A stretch of 64,000 bases of DNA, from positions 62,001 to 126,000 of the forward strand of contig NZ_BPKZ01000004.1 in NCBI RefSeq assembly GCF_019656075.1, read 5' to 3'. Both the position numbers and the translations under genes were made by a program. A model generated the notes under the pieces. That model had not been told where the DNA came from and did not search any database. It saw only the letters and a list, made by a program, of their open reading frames with translations. The stretch is from Leuconostoc palmae (GTDB lineage: Bacteria; Bacillota; Bacilli; Lactobacillales; Lactobacillaceae). Numbering within the stretch: position 1 is the stretch's first letter; every line of letters begins with the position of its first letter. Shown one piece after another: positions 1,861 through 59,263 of the stretch.

Positions 1861-1870
1861 GTATTTCACG

Positions 1871-1922
1871 AAAGGAATAAACTTTAACTCACTAGTTAAA
1901 GTTAAAGTAAAAATAAATTATG
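1871..1922 (+). promoter_or_regulatory. Displaced Shine-Dalgarno and stem-loop before fabZ1
   Basis: AAAGGA (1871-1876) lies 43 bases before the ATG at 1920, which has no ribosome binding site of its own and an in-frame TAA at 1914. Between them AACTTTAACT (1880-1889) and AGTTAAAGTT (1894-1903) form a perfect 10-bp hairpin. If folded, it cuts the effective spacing to about 19 bases. Confidence 0.6.
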
Positions 1923-8623: not shown

Positions 8624-8626
8624 AAT

Positions 8627-8640
8627 GCGGGTTTACCCGC
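8627..8640 (+). other. Intercistronic hairpin accB-fabZ2
   Basis: GCGGGT and ACCCGC form a GC-rich inverted repeat separated by TT, 3 bases after the accB stop, without a following T-run. Confidence 0.45.
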
Positions 8641-8654
8641 GTACATACCTGAAT

Positions 8655-8701
8655 AGGAGGAAATGCACGTAGCAGGACGCTATGTGTTTATAATAAAATG
8701 A
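8655..8701 (+). promoter_or_regulatory. Displaced Shine-Dalgarno, leader ORF and stem-loop before fabZ2
   Basis: AGGAGG (8655-8660) lies 37 bases before the ATG at 8698; no start codon is in frame in between. GCACGTAGC (8665-8673) and GCTATGTGT (8679-8687) form a 9-bp stem with two wobbles. A tiny ORF, MHVAGRYVFIIK, starts at 8663 and its TGA overlaps the fabZ2 ATG as ATGA. Either folding or coupling could deliver ribosomes. Confidence 0.6.
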
Positions 8702-10508: not shown

Positions 10509-10515
10509 AAAAATT

Positions 10516-10540
10516 ACCGCGTATGGTTCACATATGCGGT
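10516..10540 (+). other. Intercistronic hairpin accC-accD
   Basis: ACCGCGTATG and CATATGCGGT form a 10-bp stem with one wobble around GTTCA, 7 bases after the accC stop. No T-run follows. Confidence 0.5.
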
Positions 10541-10584
10541 ATTGTTGTCTTAATACTAACTATTATTAAGTTCTACGAGAATGA

Positions 10585-10660
10585 AAAGGAGATGTGTGTG
10601 CTTGGTTATTCAATTATTTTGGTAACCAGTTCGCCTGACTACAATGGATTTATACGATAA
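10585..10660 (+). promoter_or_regulatory. Displaced Shine-Dalgarno, upstream ORF and stem-loop before accD
   Basis: AAAAGGAG ends at 10591, 52 bases before the accD ATG at 10644. TTGGTTA (10602-10608) and TAACCAG (10623-10629) can pair. A short ORF in another frame can start at ATG 10592 or, better spaced, at GTG 10598. It ends at TAA 10658-10660, overlapping the accD start by 17 bases. In-frame TAA at 10623 rules out a longer AccD except for a CTG at 10635. Confidence 0.55.
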
Positions 10661-31705: not shown

Positions 31706-31753
31706 GAGAGGAGATGTATCACTTTTAGTAGGGGATACGTTATAGATAATATG
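31706..31753 (+). promoter_or_regulatory. Displaced Shine-Dalgarno and stem-loop before bmp
   Basis: GAGAGGAGA ends at 31714, 36 bases before the ATG at 31751; no other in-frame start exists. ATGTATC (31714-31720) and GATACGT (31734-31740) form a 7-bp stem with one wobble. Folding would leave about 10 bases between the Shine-Dalgarno and the start. Confidence 0.55.
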
Positions 31754-36385: not shown

Positions 36386-36453
36386 AAGAAAGGCATATCA
36401 ATTTAGTTGGCTATAACATAGTAGAAACTATAATTGACGTTTAGCAAATTATG
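36386..36453 (+). promoter_or_regulatory. Displaced Shine-Dalgarno and stem-loop before pepF
   Basis: AAGAAAGG (36386-36393) lies 57 bases before the ATG at 36451, and a TAG at 36442-36444 excludes a longer protein. CAATTTAGTT (36399-36408) and AACTATAATTG (36426-36436) pair over 10 bp with one bulged base. The folded spacing is about 19 bases. Confidence 0.6.
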
Positions 36454-50236: not shown

Positions 50237-50301
50237 GGAGGGATACTGTAGGTTAATATGCTTTTTGATAGCTATTAACTCTGCACTATAGAATAAACAT
50301 G
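50237..50301 (+). promoter_or_regulatory. Displaced Shine-Dalgarno and stem-loop before rlmD
   Basis: GGAGGG (50237-50242) lies 56 bases before the ATG at 50299, which has no ribosome binding site nearby. GTTAATA (50252-50258) and TATTAAC (50273-50279) pair perfectly, and GC pairs with GC inside after one bulge. No upstream ORF links the two. Confidence 0.5.
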
Positions 50302-59133: not shown

Positions 59134-59208
59134 TGCTGTATAGTAGTTATCTTAATGTGCTTTCTTGATAAAACTGGTAAAATAAAAGAGATTAATTTAA
59201 CTATAGAA

Positions 59209-59263
59209 AAGGAATATGATTAGTGCGATTTCTAGGCAACTAATCAATGCAATATATTTATGA
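59209..59263 (+). promoter_or_regulatory. Displaced Shine-Dalgarno, leader ORF and stem-loop before tgt
   Basis: AAAAGGA (to 59213) lies 46 bases before the ATG at 59260; an in-frame TAG at 59233 excludes an earlier start. GATTAGT (59218-59224) and ACTAATC (59239-59245) pair perfectly. A 15-codon [18 protein letters not shown], starts at 59216 and its TGA overlaps the tgt ATG as ATGA. Confidence 0.6.

Follow-up and report, generated by a model that had tools for sequence, protein, structure and literature searches.

Probable split ribosome-binding sites, bridged by RNA hairpins, in housekeeping genes of Leuconostoc

Seven leaders with a distant Shine-Dalgarno sequence

The window, meaning the whole stretch of 64,000 nucleotides analysed here, corresponds to C4:62001-126000 of a Leuconostoc genome of 1.386 Mb in 28 contigs. 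Seven genes on its forward strand (pepF, fabZ1, fabZ2, accD, bmp, rlmD and tgt) carry a Shine-Dalgarno sequence (SD) far ahead of the start codon, and a stem-loop can form in the gap between the two. The leader of pepF (oligoendopeptidase F, TIGR00181) begins with the weak SD AAGAAAGG (36386..36393), followed by an 11-bp stem-loop (36398..36437; stem p 0.011, MFE p 0.051) and by the start codon (36451..36453), with an in-frame stop at -9 and an SD-to-ATG gap of 57 nt. The SD of fabZ1 is GAAAGGA (1870..1876), and its gap of 43 nt holds a 10-bp stem with a loop of 4 (1880..1903; p 0.010) ahead of the start codon (1920..1922). The gap of fabZ2 measures 37 nt and runs from AGGAGG (8655..8660) across the stem-loop (8662..8689; p 0.008) to the start codon (8698..8700), and that of accD, 52 nt, runs from AAAAGGAG (10584..10591) across the weakest stem-loop of the seven (10602..10629) to the start codon (10644..10646). 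For bmp, which encodes a BMP-type ABC substrate-binding protein (top NCBIfam match, under the cut-off), the SD AGAGGAG (31707..31713) directly adjoins the stem-loop (31714..31740; p 0.012), whose pairs covary, and the start codon (31751..31753) follows after a gap of 37 nt. The gap is 56 nt in rlmD (TIGR00479; SD GGAGGG, 50237..50242; stem-loop core, 50251..50280, stem p 0.024, MFE p 0.002; start codon, 50299..50301) and 46 nt in tgt (SD AAAAGGA, 59207..59213; stem-loop, 59217..59246, p 0.008; start codon, 59260..59262). The gene names accD and tgt are those of the original prediction.

That prediction held that these leaders have a strong SD far upstream, none near the ATG and no earlier start in frame, and the layout is confirmed for all seven, with gaps of 37-57 nt. 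The SD motifs searched for (at least 4 nt) are absent from the 2-14 nt ahead of every start, and an upstream in-frame stop comes before any earlier ATG, GTG or TTG. The word strong does not fit pepF, whose SD is the weakest of the seven and is not called at the energy cut of -4.5 kcal/mol; the case for this gene rests on the analysis of its own gap and on its orthologues. The anti-SD of the genome is assumed to be standard, the 3' end of its 16S rRNA not having been found in the stretches examined.

A hairpin was likewise expected in each gap, and a 10-11 bp stem is present in every one when one defect is allowed. Compared with 1000 dinucleotide shuffles per gap, stem p is 0.008-0.024 for six leaders and 0.085 for accD, and MFE p is 0.002-0.058 across the seven. 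Three stems had been described as perfect: the fabZ1 stem is, the tgt stem contains a bulge, and the rlmD stem consists of a 7-bp perfect core within a longer imperfect stem. The folded spacing, which depends on the stem chosen, was put at 10-28 nt and is 9-26 nt with the present stems.

An unselected scan of the genome

Since the seven leaders were picked by an earlier reader, the fair test is an unselected scan. Open reading frames of at least 90 codons were taken with up to three candidate starts each and an SD no shorter than 5 nt lying 22-70 nt away. The best stem with its feet 0-8 nt past the SD and 5-17 nt ahead of the start was scored, and the expectation came from dinucleotide-shuffled gaps. 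Across 1,126,175 bases and 1036 such frames, a score of at least 17 is reached by 40 pairs of far SD and start (34 genes) against 6.0 expected, and by 5 against 2.2 where a near SD is present. At a score of at least 20 the count is 21 against 1.9 in the same sequence, and in 728,901 bases of the genome it is 17 against 1.0 (1 against 0.6 with a near SD present). Two further genomes, G012 and G018, belonging respectively to the groups A and B defined below, give 10 against 0.3 and 4 against 0.6 at this score in 400 kb each.

Five of the seven named leaders are within the 34 scan genes, accD and pepF falling below the threshold. Some of the 34 are doubtful, namely a 392-aa gene (C1:166170) with a terminator-like hairpin and an AAGGAG that touches the ATG, and the genes at C1:151799 and C7:71542 (HtrA-like), in which the stem or the SD is poor. 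An NCBIfam scan covered 29 of the 34 proteins, and 5 are without a family. The families include asnS, hisS, lysS, gltX, leuS, nusG, ribonuclease Z, ychF, purR, glucokinase, ribokinase, pgi, tatD, two rlmD, acetolactate decarboxylase and a Clp ATPase (below the cut-off). Many of the affected genes are housekeeping genes, and aminoacyl-tRNA synthetases make up 5 of the 34.

The hairpins also have a preferred place. With no constraint on where in the gap the stem lies, a score of at least 17 is reached at 61 of the 276 starts in this genome, against 31.0 in shuffles; 43 of these 61 stems have a 5' linker of 0-5 nt (13.2 from shuffles) and 30 a 3' linker of 6-11 nt (7.4 from shuffles), and 3' linkers shorter than 6 nt are rarer than in shuffles (7 against 12.0). 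The 3' linker is A/T-rich (48% A and 35% T in 34 elements). The first six bases of the stem are paired in context with a value of 0.88 (33 elements), and the real gap gives the SD no greater accessibility than shuffled ones do (0.55 versus 0.52 unpaired).

Orthologous leaders in two Leuconostoc groups

Orthologous leaders were compared in up to 19 Leuconostoc genomes, among them L. inhae (G008), L. miyukkimchii (G015) and L. pseudomesenteroides (G016). A four-protein tree of 18 genomes, midpoint-rooted with no outgroup, separates group B (G003, G010, G013, G014, G016 and G018; support 1.0), and the rest of the tree is called group A (G000-G002, G005-G009, G011, G012, G015 and G017). The position of G001 is uncertain, as it groups with B at a support of 0.674. 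G004 is absent from the tree because the whole of its rlmD is missing, and it was assigned to group A on the likeness of its leaders to those of G005.

Ten families were tabulated, the seven named genes together with nusG, asnS and the first gene past the window, which we take to encode an HD-domain hydrolase. The table comprises 173 leaders, in which some group B starts are placed a few codons off. It leaves out the partial accD of G004, the rlmD, fabZ2 and asnS of that genome (no leader) and 24 HD hydrolase leaders from other genera, and the group A leaders of the hydrolase gene come from G000, G005 and G006 only. Group A has 97 leaders with a far SD and no near SD, 14 with a near SD and 5 without a call, and group B with G025 has 8, 43 and 6, respectively. 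The five group A leaders without a call are tgt of G002, rlmD of G009 and G017, accD of G001 and pepF of this genome, the last because its SD is under the energy cut.

Removal of 7 duplicates from the 97 leaves 90 distinct group A leaders with a far SD. Stem p is at most 0.01 in 39 of them, at most 0.05 in 62 and at most 0.1 in 76, values that are optimistic because the SD was chosen jointly with the stem; it exceeds 0.1 in 14, including nusG of G006, G008, G009 and G017. Within the 76, the raw distance from SD to start is 27-105 nt (mean 53.5, s.d. 19.7) and the folded spacing averages 12.0 nt (s.d. 3.4), its range being partly set by the search bounds of 5-25. Measured in the same register, the ordinary SDs of this genome lie 4-10 nt ahead of the ATG for 375 of 473 genes, a shorter spacing than this mean. 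The longest gaps, with the SD 75-105 nt from the start, are those of accD in G005, G006, G008 and G017 and of asnS in G001, G005, G006, G008 and G015, where the structure is closed by a stem of 7-17 bp that stops 9-15 nt short of the start (p 0.005-0.104).

A distant SD or stem that is not conserved would speak against the device, and the idea withstands this comparison in one of the two groups. Group A keeps the SD, mostly followed by hairpins whose sequence and length are particular to each lineage, and most orthologues keep a stem of altered sequence; group B has an ordinary SD for bmp, accD, fabZ1, fabZ2, tgt and nusG. The original prediction of a repeated device in this genus holds more narrowly, for group A; in group B spacing is mostly ordinary and split leaders are few (pepF, HD hydrolase gene). 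Even in group A the tgt leader has a far SD in only 5 of 13 genomes (G000, G002, G007, G011 and G012), the other 8 being ordinary. The HD hydrolase gene, nusG and asnS, none of which belonged to the original seven, behave like them.

Individual families illustrate this turnover. An SD of the AAGG, AAGGG or AGGAG type precedes the pepF gap in the 12 other group A orthologues, and the orthologous hairpins are of other sequence, including the short GTGCGG/CCGCAC of G003 and G016; the short group B hairpins have p 0.005 in G003, 0.015 in G016 and 0.075-0.318 in the other four genomes. AGGAGG stands ahead of the fabZ2 gap in 11 of the 12 group A orthologues read, and G001 has an ordinary near SD. 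Orthologues of accD have stronger stem-loops and gaps of up to 101 nt. Among the far-SD genomes, tgt has a stem p of 0.005 in three and of 0.065 in G007; the stems of G011 and G012 measure 13-14 bp and are of other sequence (p 0.005), and G002 has the far SD with no significant structure in the gap (51 of 200 shuffles as good). The HD hydrolase gene has a hairpin in G018 of group B (p 0.005) and also in G025, from another genus of the family (p 0.040), and its 24 orthologues in other genera show, by eye, an SD-like purine run near the start.

The stems also change in a compensatory manner, pair by pair, in bmp and fabZ2. For bmp (MAFFT, 11 distinct leaders), all 8 pairs change on both sides and 98.8% of 85 cells pair. 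Both-side changes occupy 17 cells against 4.7 in shuffles; 0 of 500 shuffles are as high in pairing, 0 of 500 in both-side changes, and 11 of 500 in further pair types. Sliding one arm reduces pairing to 18-23% at one column, 59-60% at two and 13-33% at three. For fabZ2, 9 of 11 pairs show both-side changes among 10 distinct orthologues and 16 of 110 cells are broken; the ten-leader MAFFT alignment of this gene is misaligned, and its seven-row alignment was left out of the counts. RNAalifold on MAFFT alignments yields no consensus structure in pepF, tgt, accD, fabZ1 and rlmD, whose sequences have diverged too far, and support in these families comes stem by stem. Evolution appears to keep the shape of the hairpin, and not its sequence, in dozens of ordinary Leuconostoc genes.

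Several other elements adjoin these leaders. Directly upstream of the fabZ2 SD (about 8625-8654), group A conserves in sequence a second hairpin and the motif GCGG...CCGCGTACATA.CTGAATAGGAGG, and fabZ of Fructobacillus and Convivina is likewise preceded by a TACATA core. Upstream of accD (about 10514-10550) lies a long hairpin that is conserved, ACCGC.TATG...CATATGCGGTATTGTTGT, with a similar one in group B. Inverted repeats upstream of fabZ1 (about 1800-1862), which have a similar sequence in group B, resemble operators of FabT. The nusG leaders (L404-L422) of many Leuconostoc genomes have a terminator-like hairpin and a T run upstream of the SD. The asnS leaders of six group B genomes (L433-L437, L439) show no recognisable SD, and their start lies a few bases past an in-line TAA, so that coupling to the upstream gene is possible. 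In group B rlmD (L166, L167, L170, L171, L177, L178), ATC takes the place of the start codon in the alignment, about 8 nt past GAGG, and an in-frame ATG stands 18 nt upstream of it, right behind a terminator-like hairpin; either start is possible.

Proposed split ribosome-binding sites, rival explanations and known systems

The distant SD without a near one, the stem with its excess over chance and its preferred placement, its compensatory upkeep in bmp and fabZ2 and its place on the mRNA strand are best explained, as originally proposed, by split ribosome-binding sites, in which a hairpin brings the distant SD near the start and which are used by tens of housekeeping genes (probability about 0.78). 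The 30S subunit would bind the SD far upstream, and the RNA between SD and start would fold into a hairpin or, in some species, into a longer structure closed by one stem. With the 5' foot 0-5 nt past the SD and the 3' foot about 7-13 nt ahead of the AUG, the AUG could get to the P site while the spacer is not threaded through. The fixed points would be the SD and the AUG, and the RNA in between could vary in sequence and length so long as it still folds. On the simplest reading, the hairpin would act on translation by shortening the distance between SD and AUG; its folding is expected to raise initiation at the AUG, and it probably remains folded on the ribosome. In this arrangement the A/T-rich 3' linker would occupy the mRNA channel, and the hairpin would sit on the exit side. 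More speculatively, the short 5' linker suggests that the SD/anti-SD helix may stack end to end on the hairpin. A wider proposal, which is tentative, is that the lineage has come to initiate routinely across looped-out spacers: structured inserts of ~15-90 nt would arise, grow and turn over in sequence in tens of genes per genome with their feet in register and the SD helix stacked, and the ribosome or a partner factor may be adapted to them.

The hairpins could instead be regulatory or stabilising 5' structures (protein-binding operators, thermometers or RNase barriers), for which lying between SD and AUG is secondary. The many housekeeping genes, synthetases included, could share such control, and RNA stems would respond to temperature. 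However, a self-comparison of the 34 elements finds only 11-12-nt matches between different genes, and Rfam at the gathering score finds one tmRNA and one tRNA in the window and nothing at the seven leaders. Position is fixed relative to SD and AUG alike, and in the unfolded leader no SD is within reach, all of which makes this explanation unlikely. A mobile repeat as the source of the elements is disfavoured, the elements of different genes being unrelated in sequence.

Very unlikely is an origin as promoter or operator palindromes in DNA, with transcripts that begin downstream of the SD and have short leaders. The pepF gap of this genome does contain TTGGCT-16-TATAAT, but by eye this promoter-like sequence is missing from the orthologues, and the distant SD is conserved. 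Palindromes acting in DNA would show G-U and A-C alike, whereas under symmetric scoring the stems of the seven families have 56 G-U against 23 A-C, an excess of G-U that fits RNA of the mRNA strand.

Even less credible is translational coupling, with each distant SD belonging to a short upstream ORF that terminates at the main start. The idea is suggested by fabZ2 and tgt of this genome, where a frame from an ATG just past the SD ends in ATGA, but the frame is missing from orthologues such as those in G005 or G012, and the ORF is not conserved. Start codons lie 3-12 nt past the SD core in 38 of 76 split leaders against 43.0 in shuffled ones, and in 0 of 10 fabZ2 leaders (the ATG of fabZ2 in this genome, 2 nt past its SD, is outside this count), and gap lengths are spread over all three frames (23, 30 and 23). 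Chance hairpins in AT-rich leaders picked by eye, originally named as the main alternative and in keeping with the modest stem p of single leaders (0.008-0.085), are rejected by the excess in the unselected scan, the covariation of bmp and the recurrence in unselected genes, and have next to no probability left.

Split sites as proposed here have a precedent in phage T4. A T4 review names two phage genes as known cases: a hairpin shortens the SD-AUG distance from 22 to 5 nt in gene 38 and from 27 to 11 nt in gene 25, and mutations that weaken the structure lower initiation (PMC3014915). The Leuconostoc leaders share with these genes a distant SD, none near the AUG, and a hairpin in between that leaves both outside it. 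The folded spacing is 5-11 nt in T4, compared with a search-bounded mean of 12 nt (s.d. 3.4) in the 76 leaders and 9-26 nt in the seven. Unlike the T4 genes, the Leuconostoc cases are cellular housekeeping genes, number tens per genome, and have raw gaps of 27-105 nt and hairpins that vary in sequence and size between species. They go further than the T4 cases in that they involve tens of genes, their gaps extend to about 100 nt, and their sequence turns over while the structure is kept.

Two other systems are comparable. The thrS mRNA of E. coli has its SD on the AUG side of a hairpin. In a modelling study, the thrS hairpin (domain 2, about -14 to -48) separates the start region from an upstream single-stranded domain and is accommodated by the ribosome without unfolding (PMC3936740). 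The proposed Leuconostoc sites would likewise have a hairpin that the ribosome accommodates in its folded state, but the seven leaders have no near SD on the AUG side. The byps of yeast mitochondria are folded inserts in the coding sequence of some genes that are hopped during elongation; they are skipped by the ribosome, as is proposed here, whereas the Leuconostoc insert precedes the start codon. A search of the open-licence literature in PMC gave no report of a split layout in Leuconostoc, and PMC5217627 has no bearing on it.

Shared within one bacterial genus by nusG, fab genes, rRNA-modification genes and aminoacyl-tRNA synthetases, this layout would count among the regular ways in which bacteria initiate translation, and structural work on how a 30S subunit accommodates a folded spacer would gain dozens of natural variants. 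Such genes would be misjudged by software for gene finding or expression modelling that assumes an ordinary SD spacing. Between the two Leuconostoc groups, an ordinary and a split leader of one and the same gene can be paired for comparison.

Loci of other genera, 20 kb or less each, were scanned at a score of at least 17. No clear excess is found in these loci for other Lactobacillaceae (2 against 4.9 expected), Clostridia and others (4 against 3.8), Convivina with two allies (0 against 0.5) or Oenococcus (0 against 0.0). Weissella and Enterococcus give 2 against 0.4 each and Fructobacillus 2 against 1.0, numbers too small to judge. A single leader of like layout was seen in a Clostridiaceae MAG (L043, about 5134), where AAGGAGG is followed after 1 nt by a 12-bp hairpin and, 10 nt further on, by the ATG.
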